From assembly GCA_024644405.1 (NCBI GenBank), contig JAHELC010000005.1:62001-126000 (forward strand): DNA of 64,000 nucleotides, written 5' to 3'. Under the pieces are notes generated by a model that was not told the DNA's origin, searched no databases, and worked only from the letters and a program-made list of their open reading frames with translations. This document shows positions 2,122 to 62,305 of the stretch, piece by piece (position 1 is the stretch's first letter; each line of letters begins with the position of its first letter). Made by a program: the position numbers and the translations under genes. Source of the stretch: Nitrospinaceae bacterium. GTDB taxonomy: Bacteria; Nitrospinota; Nitrospinia; Nitrospinales; Nitrospinaceae.

Positions 2122-2496
2122 ATGTGGGTTAAACAGGCATTTCGCGATTATTACAAGCCCAAACTTCGCCGGGAACTGAAGCGCGACCCGACTCAGGAGG
2201 AGTGCGACCAGCGGTTTGAAGAAATTTATAAGGAACTCCGCCTGACCCTGCTTGCCGGGGTTTACGAGGGGGTTTCCCTTTATTTTTATGAGATTGGCCA
2301 GTTCACGCTGGACGAGTTCAATACCTTCCGGGATCGGGCGGAAGAATATATTTTTGAGCGCTTCGGCGGCGGCAATTTCAAGTTGAATTTTTACGAAGGC
2401 GATTCCTTCGTGGTCACCGTCAATTTCAAGCCTGAGGGAGAGCCCAAGTGGCATCATCTGCTCCCTGAGAAAGCCAAACCTTTTGTGAATCCCTAA
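2122..2496 (+). CDS. Conserved-looking hypothetical protein, 124 aa
   Basis: Not recognised. The product is soluble, mixed alpha/beta by composition, rich in Glu/Lys and aromatic residues (YEGVSLYFYEIGQF), with no signal peptide or membrane helix. The ATG has no strong Shine-Dalgarno site. Its stop overlaps the mfd ATG by one base (TAATG, 2494-2498), so it is the first gene of the mfd transcription unit and probably drives coupled translation of mfd. It could be a small partner or regulator of transcription-coupled repair, but only position supports this. Confidence 0.7.
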   Translation: MWVKQAFRDYYKPKLRRELKRDPTQEECDQRFEEIYKELRLTLLAGVYEGVSLYFYEIGQFTLDEFNTFRDRAEEYIFERFGGGNFKLNFYEGDSFVVTVNFKPEGEPKWHHLLPEKAKPFVNP

Positions 2497-5400
2497 TGAA
2501 TTCTCCCACCTCTTCGACGTTGCCCCGGAACGATCTGGAAAACGATCAATGGAGCGAATTGTTGGATTCTCTCAACACACTGGAACGTCCAGTGAATGTA
2601 GAGGGTCTGCCAGGTGCTTCCAAAGCGTATTTACTGGCACAAGCGTGGAAACATTCCAAGCGTCCCCAGGTGGTTATCACGTCGGACCCGACCAGGGGCG
2701 AAACCTGGCTTTCCGATTTACGTTATTTTCTCCGTCATGAAAAAGTGCGGGTCTCCCCTCAGTTTTTCCCGACCTGGGAATTATTGCCCTATGAACCGTT
2801 GTCTCCTTTCAGTGAAGTTTCGGGTGAGCGATTGGCGACTTTGAACGGATTGCTGGAGGACCATTGCCCGATACTGGTGGTGCCCGTGGAAGCGGCTTTA
2901 CAATATCTGATGCCCCGCTCCTCGCTCCGCAACCTGACTTACGATATTCAAAAAGGCCAAACGCTCGATCGCGAAGTGTTTGAAATGTGTCTGGTGGACA
3001 ACGGATACACCCGATCGCATTTGGTGGAGGAACGCGGCCAGTTCAGTTCGCGGGGCGACATTCTGGATGTTTTTCAATCGCATCAATCCCATCCCGTCCG
3101 CATCGAGTTTTTTGGTGACGAGGTCGAATCCATCCGGAAGTTCGAAGTCAGTTCGCAGGTGTCCATTGAAGATTGCGATCAGGTGAAGGTACTGCCGATC
3201 CGGGAATTGTGTCTGACCGAAAAAGATCTGCAGGGAGGTATCGACGCCATCCTGCAATACGGTCGCGACCATGAAGTCAATTCCTCACGCTTCAATGAAC
3301 TGGTGGAAAAGCTTCGGAATTTAAAAAGTTTTTCCGGAATGGAAATGCTGGCCCCTTTCTTTTTTGAGAAAAAGGAAAGCCTCTTCGATTACCTTCCGGA
3401 AAACACTTTAATCGTTCTGGACGACTTGGAGCTATTGAAGGAAAAGTGCGATCAGTTTGAAGAATTGGTTCGTGAGGAATATCAGCGGTGCCTGGACCGG
3501 GGGGATGTTGCCGCCGAGCCCGAACATCTGTACCTCGCCACCCCGGCATTTTTGAAGGAAATCGAGACCCGGCCTCACGCGATTCTCAATACCCTGAAGC
3601 TTACGGAGGATGGAGAAATCTCAAAGCGGTTTCAGGTCAAGCCGATTCCCTCCTTTCAGGGGAAATTCGATCTGTTTGCACATCACGCTGCAGAATGGAT
3701 CGAAAAGGGTTATGACGTTTCAGTGGCCGCGCCGACCAAAGGACATGTCAAACGCATGAATGAGTTGTTGGTGGATAAGGAATTGAACCTCCCGGTTGAA
3801 CTCGGTTTTATCAGCCAGGGATTCCAGTTTCCTGAAATGAATACCGTTTTTGTCGCCGAACATGAAATCTTCGGCCGGACCCATAAACATCGGCATCGCC
3901 GCAAATCACGCTCGACGGTTTTCCAGCGCGGCTTTAAGGATCTGAAGGAAGGCGATTTGCTGGTGCATGTGGATTACGGCATCGGCCAATACACCCGGAC
4001 CAAAGAATTACAGACCGGAATCGGGGGAGGTGAGTTTCTGGAAATATTTTATGCCGACGACCAGAAACTTTACATTCCGATGGATGGATTGTCTTCCATT
4101 CAGAAATATGTGGGAGGGGGAGAAGAGAACCCTCCTCTCAGTCAGCTGGGGGGTACCCAATGGAAGCGCCAAAAGAAAAAGATAAAAGATTCACTGAAAG
4201 AGCTTGCGGGTGAACTGTTGAAAGTTTATGCCTCGCGGGAAATGGCCAAGGGCCATGTGTATTCGAACAATTCAGTACTCATGCAGGATTTTGCGGACTC
4301 TTTCGAATATGTCGAGACCGAAGATCAGCTGAAAGCCATTGAAGATGTCATCGAAGATCTGGAACGCGAGAAACCCATGGACCGGTTGATCTGTGGCGAC
4401 GTGGGTTACGGTAAAACCGAGGTGGCCATGCGAGCGGCGTTCAGTGCCGTGTTGGATAAAAAACAAGTCGCCGTGCTGGTGCCCACTACCATTTTGGCGC
4501 AACAGCATTGGAGTACCTTTCAGGAGCGGTTTCACATGCATCCGGTGCAAGTGGAAATGGTCAGCCGGTTTCGCACTCCCCGCGAGCAAAAAGAGACCCT
4601 CAAGCGCCTGAAAGAAGGGAAAGTGGATATCCTCGTCGGGACCCATCGCTTGCTGTCCAAGGACGTGCAGTTTGCCGACCTGGGATTGGTGATCATTGAT
4701 GAGGAACAGCGGTTCGGGGTCAAACACAAGGAGCGGTTGAAGGAACTGAGAGCTTCGGTAGACGTACTCACCCTGAGTGCCACTCCGATTCCCCGGACCC
4801 TTCACTTTTCATTGATGGGTGTGCGGGATCTGAGCGTTATCGAAACCCCGCCGAGCGACCGTTTATCGATTAAAACCTATGTTCGGAAATTTGACGAGGA
4901 GCTTATTCGGGAAGCCATTCTCCGGGAAAAGGATCGCGGAGGGCAGGTGTACTTCGTACACAACAAGGTTCAAAGCATTCATTCGACCGCGGCAATGCTC
5001 AGAAAGATTGTCCCGGAGGTCACCCTGGGGATTGCTCATGGTCAGCTTCAGGAAAGGATGCTCGAAAAGGTGATGAAGCAATTCATCGAAAAGGAAATCG
5101 ATCTCCTGTTGTGCACCTCCATCATCGAATCGGGACTGGATATACCCTCCGCCAACACGATCATCATAAACCGGGCCGACCAGTTCGGCCTGGCGCAACT
5201 GTATCAGCTGAGGGGCAGGGTGGGGCGGTACAAGCATCAGGCGTATGCCTATCTACTCATTCCGGGGGCGTTGGCCATCAGCGAGGATGCGCGCAAACGT
5301 TTATCCGCCATTGAGGAGATGAGCGATCTGGGTGCCGGTTTCGAATTGGCCGCCCGGGATATGGAAATCCGCGGTACCGGCAACATGCTGGGCCACAACC

Positions 5401-41266: not shown

Positions 41267-41947
41267 ATGGCTCAAGAAACCAAATTAAAAAGAAAAGACC
41301 TGAAAGAACCGGATCAATTTCTGGTGGCGAGCAATGAATTTCTTGAGTTTTTGACTCGCCACAAATCTATGCTGGTCAGCTTGTTGGTCGGGATACTGGT
41401 AATCGCGGGTGGAATCTTTTTTATAGCTCAACAGAAAAGTTCCGAAAGCTTGAAAATGGAATCCCTTTATTTTCAAATGACCCAGCTGGCGGAAGACCCA
41501 AAGGAGCTCACCGGAGAACAGTTGATTTCCGAATTGAAGTCTATTTTTGAGCAGTTGGAGGAAGGGGATCAGAAAACAAGGGCCCGACTGTTGCTGGGAG
41601 ATGTCCACTATCAAAATAAACATTACGATGACGCTCTTTCCTCGTTTAAAATAGTATTGGATACAGCGCAGCCGGGAACGCTGAATTTTTATATGGCCCA
41701 ATCCGGTATGGCTCATTCGTATGAAGGTAAAAAAGATTTCAAGAATGCCATAGCTCATTACAAAGAAATTATTGATCATCCGGGGGAGTCCCCGCTGTTT
41801 TATACCTATCTTGGATTGGCGCGGTGTTATGAGTTGGTACAGGATCCCCAGAACGCTCTATTGATTCTGCGTGAAATGCAAATCAAATTTCCCAAACATG
41901 CCGGCCTGGAGAAAGTGAATACCTCTCTCAATCGTTTGGAAGGCTAG
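41267..41947 (+). CDS. YfgM-like membrane-anchored TPR protein
   Basis: A 226-aa protein with a cytoplasmic N-terminus, one membrane helix (about 37-57, MLVSLLVGILVIAGGIFFIA) and a periplasmic region of about four tetratricopeptide-like repeats (RARLLLGDVHYQNKHYDDAL, MAHSYEGKKDFKNAIAHYKE, LGLARCYELVQDPQNALLIL). The topology matches YfgM/Tol-associated TPR proteins, which work with periplasmic chaperones at the translocon. It precedes a BepA-like protease gene by 23 bases, echoing the yfgM/bepA functional link in E. coli. Confidence 0.82.
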   Translation: MAQETKLKRKDLKEPDQFLVASNEFLEFLTRHKSMLVSLLVGILVIAGGIFFIAQQKSSESLKMESLYFQMTQLAEDPKELTGEQLISELKSIFEQLEEGDQKTRARLLLGDVHYQNKHYDDALSSFKIVLDTAQPGTLNFYMAQSGMAHSYEGKKDFKNAIAHYKEIIDHPGESPLFYTYLGLARCYELVQDPQNALLILREMQIKFPKHAGLEKVNTSLNRLEG

Positions 41948-41970
41948 GCATCATTTCATGAGCTCTCTTT

Positions 41971-43056
41971 ATGAGGCTATTTTTTAAACCCAGGGTTCGC
42001 ATCGCCTGTTTGCTTTTTCTCCTTTCAGGTTTGATTTTTCTGCTCCTTCCTTCTCCTTCCTTCTCCGTTCCGTTCATCAGCAAGGAAACCGAATTGGCCA
42101 TGGGCCAGGAGGCGGATAAACAAGTTATTGCTCAGTTTGGATTGTATGAGGACAAAGTCCTTCAATTGTACGTAAATGATATCGGCCAAAAACTGGTGTC
42201 CGAATTATCGGACAAGGAATTCAATAAATACTTTTTTAAAGTCGTGGACAGTTCGGAAATTAATGCGTTTGCTTTGCCGGGTGGATATATCTATGTCACG
42301 CGGGGAATTTTGGCCACGATCAACAACGAGGCTGAGCTGGCCGGAATCCTGGGGCATGAAATCGGCCATGTCACCCAGCACCATGGCGCCAAACAAATTG
42401 TTCGGGCGATCGGAGCCCAGATACTCGCCATTGGGGGGGCCATCGCGAGTCCCAAGAATGCGGGAGAATGGCTGATGGTCAGTACCCAAATGTTCAACCA
42501 GATCAACCTGGGATATGGACGCGATGCAGAATTGGAATCCGATGCGCATGGCCTGTTGTCGGCCTATCAGGCGGGATATGATCCGCGCAGTATGGTCGAT
42601 TTTTTAAAGGGTTTGCGCCAACAGGAAATGATGTCCGGTCAGTCCTATCACAGTTTTCAGTCCACCCACCCGGACACCAAGGAGCGGGTGATTAAAACCG
42701 GCAGTTTGTCCGAGTCCATTATCAATCGTGCCGACAAACCGGTTACGAAAAACCGAAAAGAATATTTGAACCATATTCAGGGTTTGTCCTTTGGCGGAAA
42801 AAAACACCGGGGAGACAGAAGGAATTACAAGAAAAAACATATCGATGTTTATGAAGTCCGCCCTGGCGATACCTTCAAGAGCATCGCTATCAGGGAATTG
42901 GGAGATGAACGGGAGGACTTGACGATTGCGGTCATGAATGGAAAACGCCTGGAAGATTCCGTGAAACCCGGTGAATTTTTAAAACTGGTGCGGCCAGGAC
43001 CCTATCGCAAAGATACCATTCTCGAGATACGTCCCGATATCGATACATCGCAATGA
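41971..43056 (+). CDS. BepA-like M48 metalloprotease with LysM-like C-terminus
   Basis: A 361-aa periplasmic zinc protease. It has an N-terminal signal or anchor (about 8-30), then an M48 catalytic domain with HEIGHVTQHHG near 128-138 (HExxH) and the third ligand Glu in ELESDAHG near 188. BepA proteins degrade stalled outer-membrane proteins at the BAM complex. E. coli BepA ends in TPR repeats; here the C-terminus is a LysM-like fold (VYEVRPGDTFKSIAIRELG...NGKRLEDSVKPGEFLKLV) that may bind peptidoglycan. It is co-directional with the YfgM-like gene. Confidence 0.9.
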   Translation: MRLFFKPRVRIACLLFLLSGLIFLLLPSPSFSVPFISKETELAMGQEADKQVIAQFGLYEDKVLQLYVNDIGQKLVSELSDKEFNKYFFKVVDSSEINAFALPGGYIYVTRGILATINNEAELAGILGHEIGHVTQHHGAKQIVRAIGAQILAIGGAIASPKNAGEWLMVSTQMFNQINLGYGRDAELESDAHGLLSAYQAGYDPRSMVDFLKGLRQQEMMSGQSYHSFQSTHPDTKERVIKTGSLSESIINRADKPVTKNRKEYLNHIQGLSFGGKKHRGDRRNYKKKHIDVYEVRPGDTFKSIAIRELGDEREDLTIAVMNGKRLEDSVKPGEFLKLVRPGPYRKDTILEIRPDIDTSQ

Positions 43057-50288: not shown

Positions 50289-50365
50289 GGCGGTATAGCT
50301 CAGCTGGTTAGAGCGCACGGCTCATATCCGTGGTGTCCGGGGTTCAAGTCCCTGTACCGCCACCA
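50289..50365 (+). tRNA. tRNA-Met or tRNA-Ile2 (anticodon CAT)
   Basis: Acceptor GGCGGTA (50289-50295) pairs with TACCGCC (50355-50361), followed by discriminator A and encoded CCA (50363-50365). D-arm AGCTCAGCTGGTTAGAGC. Anticodon stem CACGG/CCGTG with loop CTCATAT gives CAT. T-arm GGGGTTCAAGTCCC. The overall sequence is closer to elongator tRNA-Met as I know it, but a CAT tRNA lysidinylated by TilS (Ile2) cannot be excluded. It is not the initiator type because the acceptor has a normal 1-72 pair. Confidence 0.92.
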
Positions 50366-50406: not shown

Positions 50407-51051
50407 TTAGAAGAACCAATAACGAATACCGAATCGGACTTCGTGCGCACTGATATCCGAATTCTCTACCAAACCCGGCGCATTGGAAAGTGTTAACTCG
50501 GCATCCGTGATCGTATCGAAATAACGGTATTCTGCAGTCAGAGAAAAGTTTTCTGTAACATTGACGGCGGCGCCTGCTATGAGTTGATAGGAGTACACCT
50601 CATCGTTATCATCCACCACCACCGTGCCGTCCAACTGCTTCAAGTTCAGGGAAAGCGTGCCGTACCCTACTCCCAGACCGGCATAGGGCGACACCACTCC
50701 AAAAAAATCCATTTCGTAATACCCGTTCAAGAAAATCTGTGCCGTATTCAAACTGCCGTCGGCCCCCTGCTGTGTGCCCCCCTGTTCGAATTTGTCGTTG
50801 GGGTTGTAGCGATAAACCGCTTCGACTTCCGCCCGCAGACTGCCGAACTTTGCTCCCACAGCCAAGGCGGCATTGACGCCATTTTGAGTATTCAACTCAA
50901 AATTGTTGGCGGGAGTGGTGCCATCCTGATTGTCCGAAGTGGGCTGGGTGTTGAATCCGGCTTGAAGTGCAAAGTATAACGTATCGGCCTGCGCCGGTGC
51001 GCTGATGAACAAGATCAACAAAACAAAAAATCCATAAATAGTTTTTTTCAT
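50407..51051 (-). CDS. Outer-membrane beta-barrel protein
   Basis: About 214 aa from ATG 51049-51051, which gives a normal signal peptide (KKTIYGFFVLLILFISAPAQA-D); the open extension upstream adds 12 residues and is unlikely. The mature protein is an alternating polar/aromatic beta-barrel (LYFALQAGFN, AEVEAVYRYNPND, YYEMDFFGVVSPYAGLGVGYG, FSLTAEYRYFDT) and ends in VRFGIRYWFF. A final Phe is the outer-membrane assembly signature. It resembles OmpW/OmpA-barrel small porins of unknown substrate. It is divergent from the bfd-like gene, sharing the region with the Fur-box-like site. Confidence 0.88.
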   Translation of the reverse strand: MKKTIYGFFVLLILFISAPAQADTLYFALQAGFNTQPTSDNQDGTTPANNFELNTQNGVNAALAVGAKFGSLRAEVEAVYRYNPNDKFEQGGTQQGADGSLNTAQIFLNGYYEMDFFGVVSPYAGLGVGYGTLSLNLKQLDGTVVVDDNDEVYSYQLIAGAAVNVTENFSLTAEYRYFDTITDAELTLSNAPGLVENSDISAHEVRFGIRYWFF

Positions 51052-51170: not shown

Positions 51171-51198
51171 TTGACAAATAAGTGCCCTTTACTAAAAT
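51171..51198 (+). promoter_or_regulatory. Promoter of the bfd-like gene
   Basis: TTGACA at 51171-51176 and TAAAAT at 51193-51198, 16 bases apart. The -10 box overlaps the Fur-box-like palindrome at 51195-51215, which is the right place for repression. Confidence 0.68.
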
Positions 51199-51215
51199 GA
51201 GAACTATTCTCATTT
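51195..51215. promoter_or_regulatory. Fur-box-like operator
   Basis: AAATGAGAA-CTA-TTCTCATTT is a perfect 9-3-9 inverted repeat. Its core AATGAGAA...TTCTCATT matches the Fur recognition pattern (TGAGAAT.ATTCTCA type). It covers the -10 box and start region of the bfd-like gene, so Fe(II)-Fur should block that promoter. It lies 144 bases from the divergent porin start. Confidence 0.72.
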
Positions 51216-51249: not shown

Positions 51250-51531
51250 ATGGATTCACCTCCCAACGCAGATGAAGAAATCATCTGCCAATGCTTTCAG
51301 GTTTCAGACAAAACCATCAAGGCGCATATCAAAAATGAAAACCTCAAGGATATTGAGCAGGTCACTGCGGCTTGTGGTGCCGGGGGAGGGTGCCAATCGT
51401 GCCACATGCTGATTCAATTGTTCATCGATCAGCAACATCATCCTGAAAAGCCCCCTGAACCCGCAAATGACGACAAGGCAGGTGGCGTAAAAAAACGCGG
51501 AATTTTCAGCAAGCTGTTCCAACGCTATTAA
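51250..51531 (+). CDS. Bacterioferritin-associated ferredoxin-like [2Fe-2S] protein
   Basis: A 93-aa protein. The BFD-like domain has C13-Q-C15 and C48-Q-S-C51 as ligands, spaced as in Bfd, which reduces and releases iron from bacterioferritin. An extra C42 lies in ACGAGGG. The C-terminal 30 residues are Pro-rich, then basic (KKRGIFSKLFQRY), an extension not present in E. coli Bfd. The overlapping Fur-box-like operator supports iron-starvation control. No bacterioferritin gene is in the window, so a NifU/NirB-type scaffold role for this domain is an alternative. Confidence 0.88.
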   Translation: MDSPPNADEEIICQCFQVSDKTIKAHIKNENLKDIEQVTAACGAGGGCQSCHMLIQLFIDQQHHPEKPPEPANDDKAGGVKKRGIFSKLFQRY

Positions 51532-51563: not shown

Positions 51564-52748
51564 ATGAAAATCGCTTACTTTGATTGTCATTCAGGTATCA
51601 GCGGAGACATGGTACTGGGTGCCCTTGTCGATGCCGGAGTGAAGCTCCAAACCATTCGCACAGGGCTGGCTTCTCTGGGACTCAAGGGTTATGAATTGAA
51701 ATCCCGGCGAGTCAAGCGGGGTCTGTTCGGGGGCACCAAAGTTGATGTCGACGTATCCGCCAAAGCGCATACCCATTCCCGAACCTTTACCGATATTGAA
51801 CAACTGCTAAAGCGCTCCAAGCTTCCCAAGTCGGTCATCGAGGATTCCCTTGAAATTTTTCTGAGGCTGGGCAAAGCCGAGGCTAGGGTGCACCGCACCC
51901 GCATCGATAAAGTTCATTTTCACGAAGTTGGGGCGGTCGACTCGATTGTCGATATTGTCGGCGGAGTCATTGGAATGCAGGAACTCAGCGTCCACCAGGT
52001 TCTGGCGTCGCCGTTGAATACAGGGGAGGGCACGGTGAAATGCGATCACGGAGTTCTTCCGGTACCGGCGCCGGCCACCCTGGAGTTACTGAAAGGCATT
52101 CCCTGCTACTCAAACGGAATTCCGTATGAGTTGACCACACCCACCGGCGCGGCCATGATCGGGTTTTGGGCTGAGGCCTTTCAATCTCTGCCCCTGATGA
52201 AGATTCAAAAATCCGGTTACGGCGCGGGGAGCCATGTCATCAAGGAGCACGCCAACTTATTAAGGATCATTGTAGGTGAAGGGGAAAGCAAGGGCGGCAA
52301 CAAAGTCGTGCTGGTGGAAACCAATATCGACGACATGAATCCGGAGTTCTACGATCATATTATGGACCAGCTGTTTTCTGCCGGTGCTTTGGATGTATTT
52401 TATACGTCCGTGATGATGAAGAAGAACCGTCCCGCCGTCAAAATTTCCGTGTTGGCTCCGCCCGCCAAACAGGAAGCCGTGTCGCACATCCTGCTGACCG
52501 AAACCTCCACCTTCGGCATCCGTTCCACTGAAATGGACCGGATCGTGCTGGACCGGCAATCCATGGAGGTGCAAACTCCTTTTGGCAAGGTGGCGGTAAA
52601 GGTGGGAAGCCTGGACGGTCAGGTGATGCATTTCTCGCCGGAATACGAAAACTGCAAACAGATCGCCCGGAAAAAAAAGATCCCCGTTAAAACGGTTTAC
52701 GATTCGGTATTGAGATTGGCGGAAAAGAAATTAACAGGCGGGTATTGA
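51564..52748 (+). CDS. larC: Nickel-pincer cofactor biosynthesis protein LarC
   Basis: LarC inserts nickel into the pyridinium bis-thiocarboxylic acid mononucleotide in a CTP-dependent reaction. The single 394-aa frame covers both LarC1 and LarC2 regions: YFDCHSGISGDMVLGALVDAG at the start (quoted as YFDCHSGISGDM and VLGALVDAG), VHFHEVGAVDSIVDIVG near 115, ANTP-like PVPAPATLELLKG, LTTPTGAAMI, and NIDDMNPEFYDHIMDQLF near 255. In some lactobacilli the two halves are joined by a frameshift; no frameshift is needed here. It starts 32 bases after the bfd-like gene. larB is at 39292-40059. Confidence 0.95.
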   Translation: MKIAYFDCHSGISGDMVLGALVDAGVKLQTIRTGLASLGLKGYELKSRRVKRGLFGGTKVDVDVSAKAHTHSRTFTDIEQLLKRSKLPKSVIEDSLEIFLRLGKAEARVHRTRIDKVHFHEVGAVDSIVDIVGGVIGMQELSVHQVLASPLNTGEGTVKCDHGVLPVPAPATLELLKGIPCYSNGIPYELTTPTGAAMIGFWAEAFQSLPLMKIQKSGYGAGSHVIKEHANLLRIIVGEGESKGGNKVVLVETNIDDMNPEFYDHIMDQLFSAGALDVFYTSVMMKKNRPAVKISVLAPPAKQEAVSHILLTETSTFGIRSTEMDRIVLDRQSMEVQTPFGKVAVKVGSLDGQVMHFSPEYENCKQIARKKKIPVKTVYDSVLRLAEKKLTGGY

Positions 52749-61340: not shown

Positions 61341-62282
61341 ATGTCTGATATTTTTTCCGTCAGCAAGGTCACCATTGGCACGCGCGGGAGTCCCTTGGCT
61401 CTCTGGCAGGCACACTGGATCAAATCTCAATTGGAATCCGTCCATGATGATTTGACCGTCGAGTTGGTCAAAATCAAAACTTCCGGCGACAAGATTCAGG
61501 ATGTTCCCCTCGCGAAAGTGGGAGGCAAGGGACTGTTCACCAAGGAAATCGAGGAGAGCCTGTTGCGCTACGAAACCGATATTGCGGTTCACAGCATGAA
61601 GGACGTGCCGGTAAAATTCCCTCCCAGTCTGACTCTGTCGGTGGTCACCGAGCGGCAAGATCCGCGCGATGTTTTGGTTTCCAGGAAAAATTTGAAACTG
61701 GATGATCTCCCGAAAGGCGCCAAAGTCGGCACCGGCAGTTTCCGCAGAACCACCCAGCTCCTGAATTACCGTCCGGACCTGGAAGTGGTTCCCATGCGCG
61801 GCAATGTCCAGACTCGACTGAACAAACTTGAATCAGAAGGATTGGATGCTATCCTCCTCGCCGCCGCAGGATTGATCCGCCTGGAAATGGGGGACCACAT
61901 CACGGAATTCATCGAACCCGAAATCATGCTGCCGGGAGGCGGGCAGGGGGCCGTCGGCATTGAATCCCGCAAGGAAGACCTCGGTGTCATGAATCGTATC
62001 TACCCGTTGGACCATGAGGAGTCGCATCGCGCCCTGGAAGCGGAGCGCGGTTTTTTAACCCGCCTGGAAGGCGGTTGTCAGGTGCCGATCGGTGTCTATG
62101 CAACCATTGAAGGAGAGAGCATACGACTCCGGGGATTGGTCGGAAGTCTGGACGGCAAGCGGGTGCTCAAAGCGGAACAGACCGGTTCCACTGAGGATCC
62201 TGAGGGACTAGGATTTCAGCTGGCCGGGGAAATTCTGGAAATGGGCGCGGACAAAATATTGAAGGAAGTTTACGGAACTTAA
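61341..62282 (+). CDS. hemC: Porphobilinogen deaminase
   Basis: HemC links four porphobilinogens to hydroxymethylbilane using a dipyrromethane cofactor. At 313 aa it has IGTRGSPLALWQAHWI, KIQDVPLAKVGGKGLFTKE with the catalytic region, HSMKDVPVKFP, TGSFRRTTQLL, RGNVQTRLNKL, GQGAVGIE and the cofactor-attaching Cys in LEGGCQVPIGVY near 241. It starts directly after the hemA stop and ends in a hairpin that overlaps its stop codon. hemB and hemL are not in the window. Confidence 0.97.
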   Translation: MSDIFSVSKVTIGTRGSPLALWQAHWIKSQLESVHDDLTVELVKIKTSGDKIQDVPLAKVGGKGLFTKEIEESLLRYETDIAVHSMKDVPVKFPPSLTLSVVTERQDPRDVLVSRKNLKLDDLPKGAKVGTGSFRRTTQLLNYRPDLEVVPMRGNVQTRLNKLESEGLDAILLAAAGLIRLEMGDHITEFIEPEIMLPGGGQGAVGIESRKEDLGVMNRIYPLDHEESHRALEAERGFLTRLEGGCQVPIGVYATIEGESIRLRGLVGSLDGKRVLKAEQTGSTEDPEGLGFQLAGEILEMGADKILKEVYGT

Positions 62283-62305
62283 GGTATTACCTTAAGTTAT
62301 TTTAT
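62276..62305 (+). terminator. Terminator of the haem operon
   Basis: AACTTAAGGT (62276-62285) pairs perfectly with ACCTTAAGTT (62289-62298) across a three-base loop, followed by a T-rich TTTTATTT. The hemC stop codon (62280-62282) lies in the stem. It separates hemC from the convergent dehydrogenase gene. Confidence 0.58.

Follow-up and report, generated by a model that had tools for sequence, protein, structure and literature searches.

The window considered here, a 64-kb stretch of a Nitrospinaceae genome, contains a perfect palindrome lying across the promoter of a gene for a small bfd-like ferredoxin. The question it raises is whether this palindrome is an operator, which regulator would occupy it, and what the gene behind it would do. 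The features on which the answer depends are the following, in window coordinates.

51171-51176, plus strand: -35 hexamer TTGACA, invariant across six aligned family-f1 sequences
51193-51198, plus strand: -10 hexamer TAAAAT, whose last four bases are the first four of the palindrome
51195-51215, no strand: candidate Fur box, the perfect 9-3-9 palindrome AAATGAGAA-CTA-TTCTCATTT
51198-51212: 7-1-7 core of the palindrome, TGAGAACTATTCTCA
51250-51531, plus strand: bfd-like gene, 93-aa [2Fe-2S] protein (Fer2_BFD, Pfam E 3.1e-15), the likely regulated gene
51564-52748, plus strand: larC (nickel-pincer cofactor protein), 32 bp downstream of bfd (TIGR00299 and NF052512 above cut-off)
50407-51051, minus strand: divergent outer-membrane beta-barrel gene (PF13505, E 1.6e-16), outside the conserved regulatory unit
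50289-50365, plus strand: tRNA-Met (CAT), part of the conserved gene row but outside the switch (ARAGORN on L020, coordinates converted)

The sequence-only reading had described TTGACA and TAAAAT separated by 16 nt, with a 9-3-9 palindrome overlapping the -10 box, and this description is correct to the base. Fur operators of the 7-1-7 type are inverted repeats with a consensus close to TGATAAT-N-ATTATCA, and the window site, TGAGAAC-T-ATTCTCA, differs by one mismatch from the 7-1-7 pattern TGAKAATNATTMTCA. Its position is also that of a Fur operator, as the palindrome lies over the promoter and overlaps the -10, and a box occupied there would be expected to block RNA polymerase. The promoter scored 11/12 and was the sole match between 50900 and 51600, where 1.1 matches are expected by chance, so that the promoter match alone is no evidence and was left unused. 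Similarly, the window holds two perfect 9-3-9 palindromes against 0-2 per shuffle in 20 shuffles, a count within the shuffle range, and the site taken alone is therefore only suggestive; AATGAGAANNNTTCTCATT occurs once exactly and once with three mismatches, with 0.52 occurrences expected in all. When six family-f1 sequences were aligned, the -35 and parts of the palindrome formed the main runs of invariant columns. The second perfect palindrome, ACTTAAGGT-ATT-ACCTTAAGT at 62277-62297, lies across the stop codon of a frame that looks hemC-like by eye (61341-62282). T-rich sequence comes next, and the palindrome may be a terminator. The evidence that goes beyond chance, all of it drawn from sequence comparison, is the genome-wide count of sites and, above all, the presence of a box upstream of 38 of the 46 homologs.

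A genome without any fur homologue had been named beforehand as speaking against a Fur site, and this is not what was found: the source assembly (2.98 Mb in 40 contigs, 96% complete and 3.5% contaminated) carries four Fur-family genes (PF01475 over cut-off), two of them Fur-like. The best matches of these two proteins, encoded on C31 and C16, are solved ferric uptake regulators (E 1.8e-35 and 1.8e-26), and both retain HHDH and C-x2-C. The C18 protein has its top score as PerR, and the C11 and C18 genes, which lie on short contigs, may be contamination. The genome scan with the palindrome that the sequence-only reading had proposed returned 18 sites within three mismatches of AATGAGAANNNTTCTCATT, compared with 6 for the reversed pattern, and the 7-1-7 pattern gave 46 sites with at most two mismatches, compared with 12 for its reverse. 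Nine sites have at most one mismatch to the 7-1-7 pattern, and seven of them stand before iron genes:

one site before the Ftr1-cytochrome c gene, C31
one site before the bacterioferritin pair, C32
three sites at the C16 bacterioferritin and the small Cys-rich frame behind it
one site before the fur gene of C16, separated from it by a small frame
one site before the bfd-like gene of the window

The remaining two look like chance: one lies inside a frame that by eye is glycosyltransferase-like (C36), and the other in a stretch that by eye resembles a palindromic repeat (C34). The small C16 Cys-rich frame, queried without its first 17 residues, has no Pfam match. Beyond the source genome, Fur was detected in 55 of 61 genomes, including all 28 of good quality; the boxed genomes without a Fur match (G009, G020 and G048) are all less than 90% complete.

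Homologs of bfd were found in 46 of the 61 genomes, one per genome; the records of close relatives are named mostly as Nitrospinaceae, Nitrospina sp., Nitrospinae or Nitrospinota, with a few under other phyla. Each upstream region, comprising 200 bp before the match and the first 30 bases of the match, was scored against AATGAKAATNATTMTCATT at 18 positions. A box of at least 14/18 was observed in 38 of the 46 regions (at least 15 in 36), and all 38 sites lie wholly 5' of the bfd match. Of 9,200 shuffled versions of the 200-bp stretches, 2.5% reached 14, which predicts 1.1 of 46, figures that overstate the certainty and are not a probability because the consensus was written after the source-genome sites had been seen and the genomes, all from a single order, are not independent samples. 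Downstream of bfd, the 46 stretches reached a maximum score of 13. By genus, the box is present in all sampled members of 11 of the 15 genera, in 10 of 12 members of one, and in none of three. The 38 sites, which were themselves picked with the consensus, all have TGA, TT and CA, while the T that stands between TT and CA is present in 37; as in 7-1-7 Fur boxes, TGAKAAT-N-ATTMTCA reads through most of them. In 27 of the 38 boxed regions a TAnnnT hexamer adjoins or overlaps the box, compared with 24% after shuffling of the 5' flank, and 26 of these 27 also have a -35 of at least 4/6; the other 11 show no TAnnnT at the box. The flanks diverge while the box persists. Taken together with the Fur genes and the best sites lying at iron genes, the retention of the box at the promoter gives strong support to the Fur operator that the sequence-only reading proposed, and 51195-51215 is very probably a Fur box.

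Eight homologs have no box scoring at least 14:

G008, G010 and G011 (genus g2, 0 of 3 boxed)
G031 and G042 (g13, 0 of 2 boxed)
G024 and G035 (g4, 10 of 12 boxed)
G013 (f3g5, 0 of 1 boxed)

Loss of Fur was rejected as the cause, since the Fur gene is kept in all eight of these genomes. In G008, G010 and G024 the tRNA-Met ends about 45-61 bp before the likely bfd start codon (hand count), which leaves little room for a separate promoter, and bfd may be reached there by read-through from the tRNA-Met promoter. The tRNA-Met is found in 22 of the 46 bfd loci. A further Nitrospina record (L165) has a box score of 12. The 36 NifU-like loci L190-L225 scored at most 13, a weak control because the NifU-like match lies inside a longer gene and its 'upstream' is coding. 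Two contigs filed under KSB1 and Marinimicrobia (L170 and L188) carry a Nitrospinota-type bfd with a box score of 15 and are likely mis-binned.

The company of iron genes extends beyond bfd. Ftr1-cytochrome c matches were found in 61 of 61 genomes, strong in 54 though some are in pieces; in the other seven (G006, G009, G020, G037, G045, G053 and G056) the best match is weak and probably the cytochrome part alone. In the source genome the gene (L143:1750-3894, plus strand, C31) encodes an Ftr1 iron permease with a fused cytochrome c domain, and a PepSY/BNR-repeat protein follows it. Within 350 bp upstream of ftr1, a box of at least 15 was observed in 23 of the 28 relatives scored, against 0.6% in shuffles; the 28 come from 30 fetched loci, two partial matches without a gene start (L231 and L255) having been left out, and 31 further genomes were unscored. 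The five ftr1 genes without a box all belong to genus g9 (0 of 5 scored). In four g9 genomes (G019, G048, G059 and G060) ftr1 lies directly behind a boxed bfd, and in the fifth, G057, the two genes are convergent on one contig about 4.5 kb apart. A g9 ftr1 without a box of its own, behind a boxed bfd, links bfd to iron uptake whatever the annotation says, and points to the bfd box as the functional one for g9 ftr1 where the two adjoin. In G042, on the other hand, bfd is box-less and ftr1 boxed. For bacterioferritin, 15 of the 30 loci scored (out of 45 listed matches) reach 14 within 300 bp upstream, against 2.1% in shuffles, and many of these sites are degenerate in the middle of the box.

Several other explanations of the site were considered against this evidence. 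That the palindrome arose by chance, or forms a hairpin in the transcript, without regulatory use would agree with the number of palindromes in the window, but a box kept in 38 of 46 homologous upstream regions amid diverging flanks, together with the same motif at other iron genes, makes this hardly credible. The Irr box of Alphaproteobacteria resembles the 9-3-9 layout with an AGAA-NNN-TTCT core, and with four Fur-family genes in the genome, one of them best as PerR, another member of the family (Irr, PerR or Zur) might bind the site in answer to haem, peroxide or zinc rather than iron. However, the sites elsewhere in the genome and in the homologs are plain Fur boxes, such as AATGATAATCATTATCAAT and AATGATAATTATTATCAAT, and the linked genes are iron genes. 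The C31 and C16 proteins score far higher as Fur than as Irr; indeed C31, C16 and C18, the three of the four Fur-family proteins that were scanned, fall far below the Irr cut-offs and are higher as Fur or PerR. The C18 and C11 genes stand on short contigs of an assembly with 3.5% contamination. The Irr-box reading, which the AGAA-N3-TTCT core had prompted, was set aside on the strength of the plain Fur boxes and Fur-like proteins, and control by any of these other regulators is very unlikely.

It had also been suggested that bfd and the divergent beta-barrel gene may answer to one and the same box, and the two do share an intergenic region in four genomes of genus g1 (G000, G001, G004 and G007), the only ones in which an ortholog of the barrel gene stands beside bfd. 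Against this, 143 bp separate the box from the barrel start codon in the window, and in G002 an N-terminally truncated barrel remnant (residues 139-214, or 130-214 by tblastn) with a stop ends at an intact box. Over the fetched extent of the remaining 41 bfd loci tblastn found no barrel, and upstream of 25 barrel paralogs 24 regions score at most 13 and one scores 14. A conserved minus-strand TTGACA was noticed by eye in the alignment at 51143-51138; there is no good -10 at 16-18 nt from it, so no barrel promoter is claimed. The barrel gene was set aside as a co-regulated partner on synteny, the G002 remnant and the paralogs without the box pattern; shared control is unsupported and, in our judgement, decidedly improbable.

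The domain of this protein is clear (PF04324, Fer2_BFD, 56.7 bits against a cut-off of 26), and the cysteines C13, C15, C48 and C51 (C-x-C, C-x2-C) are invariant in 23 aligned sequences (alignment A2, 23 of the 46 bfd proteins). An AlphaFold model made from this 23-row alignment has a mean pLDDT of 73.9, with 82-94 per ten-residue block over residues 11-60, and Foldseek matches it with confidence to P. aeruginosa Bfd alone (prob 1.00 and a by-target TM of 0.77, although E is 0.14). The predicted fold and the cluster motif C-x-C ... C-x2-C are those of the Bfd in the iron-releasing P. aeruginosa Bfd/BfrB pair (PMC10281387, PMC12261321, PMC13136788; PDB 4e6k, 6e6r). In contrast to P. aeruginosa Bfd, the Nitrospinota protein has a further invariant cysteine, C42, near the second cysteine pair, and the proteins mostly go without the Y2/L5 anchors; their bacterioferritin partner is putative. 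By NCBIfam the protein scores 48.5 bits as NifU, 32.5 as NirB and 16.2 as Bfd, none over cut-off, and the Bfd equivalog cut-off is 75. It is a small stand-alone protein, unlike NifU, and matches only the middle of the NifU model (132-202 of 290), the part with the [2Fe-2S] domain. The label 'bfd-like' given by the sequence-only reading holds for domain and fold; the bacterioferritin partner is only putative, and NifU is the better match by sequence.

Y2 and L5 are among the residues through which Pseudomonas Bfd docks on bacterioferritin (PMC12261321, PMC13136788). The window protein lacks both anchors, having I and Q at these positions. In the 23 aligned proteins the Y2 position is taken by I, V, L or T, or in L027 and L028 alone by Y, and the L5 position by Q, K or N; among all 46 only G044 has L there. 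In Brucella Bfd (PMC13136788) L2 and S5 replace Y2 and L5. Together with the L of G044 this indicates that the anchors can vary, and missing anchors make a bacterioferritin partner less likely but by no means impossible.

It is accordingly worth asking whether the ferredoxin is instead a stand-alone protein of the NifU-middle-domain type, used for Fe-S assembly or for reduction of imported iron without any bacterioferritin partner, and placed under Fur because iron shortage calls for it. The order of the NCBIfam scores and the substitutions at the Y2/L5 positions agree with this, as do the nearest proteins outside Nitrospinota, those inspected among 36 loci being NifU-like by eye, and the gene adjoins an iron permease gene in four g9 genomes. 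A ferritin match was found in 36 of the 46 bfd-bearing genomes and none in the other 10, of which three (G007, G015 and G042) are at least 90% complete. On the opposite side stand the single confident fold match of the model, which is to Bfd, the variability of the anchors, and a bacterioferritin of this genome that keeps the haem Met and has Fur sites of its own. We regard the NifU-type role as a possibility to be held tentatively. A broader proposal, that in Nitrospinota a Fur-controlled stand-alone NifU-type [2Fe-2S] protein is a general ferric-iron reductant that partners the Ftr1-cytochrome c permease no less than bacterioferritin, seems rather doubtful to us. If it were true, bfd and ftr1 of g9 would form one Fur-controlled transcription unit in four of the five genomes, and the g9 ferredoxin would be an import-side iron ferredoxin and not one for release from storage; ferritin is undetectable in four of the five bfd-bearing g9 genomes.

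What is observed directly is the sequence of the site, the extent to which it is conserved, the presence of Fur genes and the association with iron genes. The best explanation of these observations, which we consider very likely on sequence grounds, is that 51195-51215 is a Fur operator on the -10 of a sigma-70-type promoter, through which Fur with iron represses the ferredoxin gene. Under iron-replete conditions, Fur carrying its metal, most probably the C31 protein and perhaps the C16 paralog too, would bind 51195-51215 and exclude RNA polymerase, and the gene for the bfd-like [2Fe-2S] ferredoxin, probably with larC, would be silent. When iron is short, Fur would be released and the ferredoxin made, which would then probably donate electrons for reducing ferric iron, from storage or from uptake, to the usable ferrous form. 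The step that involves bacterioferritin is the weakest, as the anchors are mostly absent and 10 of 46 genomes have no ferritin match.

Members of Nitrospinota are marine nitrite oxidisers with an iron-demanding way of life. No paper on a Nitrospinota Fur regulon was found among the literature matches listed. A Fur switch on bfd is already known in other bacteria, and the present case places it in Nitrospinota. As described in PMC6922518, Pseudomonas pseudoalcaligenes has a Fur-repressed bfd with an upstream Fur box and bfr elsewhere in the genome, both as here, and bfd rises 16-fold in its fur mutant; PMC9368920 likewise gives bfd expression in Gluconacetobacter as higher without iron. The Nitrospinota gene differs from that of P. 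pseudoalcaligenes in its NifU-like sequence with a basic C-terminal tail and in its neighbour, which is larC or, in four g9 genomes, the Ftr1 permease gene. Together, the motif and the genes at which it is conserved (bfd, ftr1-cytochrome c and bacterioferritin) provide a testable starting set for recognising iron stress of these bacteria in metatranscriptomes.

With regard to the genes downstream, larC follows bfd in 39 of the 46 loci, and no terminator-like site was found between 50900 and 51600, where 0.6 would be expected. The two genes are probably co-transcribed, which would likely bring larC under Fur control. No LarA (PF09861) was found in the source genome, which is 96% complete, so the nickel-pincer cofactor may serve another enzyme. 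A conserved 181-aa gene stands behind bfd in 25 of the 46 loci, ahead of larC where larC is present; its protein has no Pfam match and is a candidate for an iron-linked family. In the source genome this gene (L017:765-1307, minus strand) is divergent to a bacterioferritin pair with a Fur box.

The source genome has three bacterioferritins. The paralog pair, at L017:1768-2331 and 2385-2831 (plus strand, C32 at about 41866-42930), lies behind a textbook Fur box and, judged by eye, is apparently without most of the iron- and haem-binding residues. Where Bfr has the iron- or haem-binding residues E18, E51, M52, H54 and H130, the first copy has L, A, L, N and R and the second Q, S, L, H and Q. An apparently empty Bfr made under iron shortage would be odd. 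The third bacterioferritin (L141:3038-3505, minus strand, C16) keeps E18, E51, M52, H54, E94 and E127, also by eye, and has Cys in place of H130.
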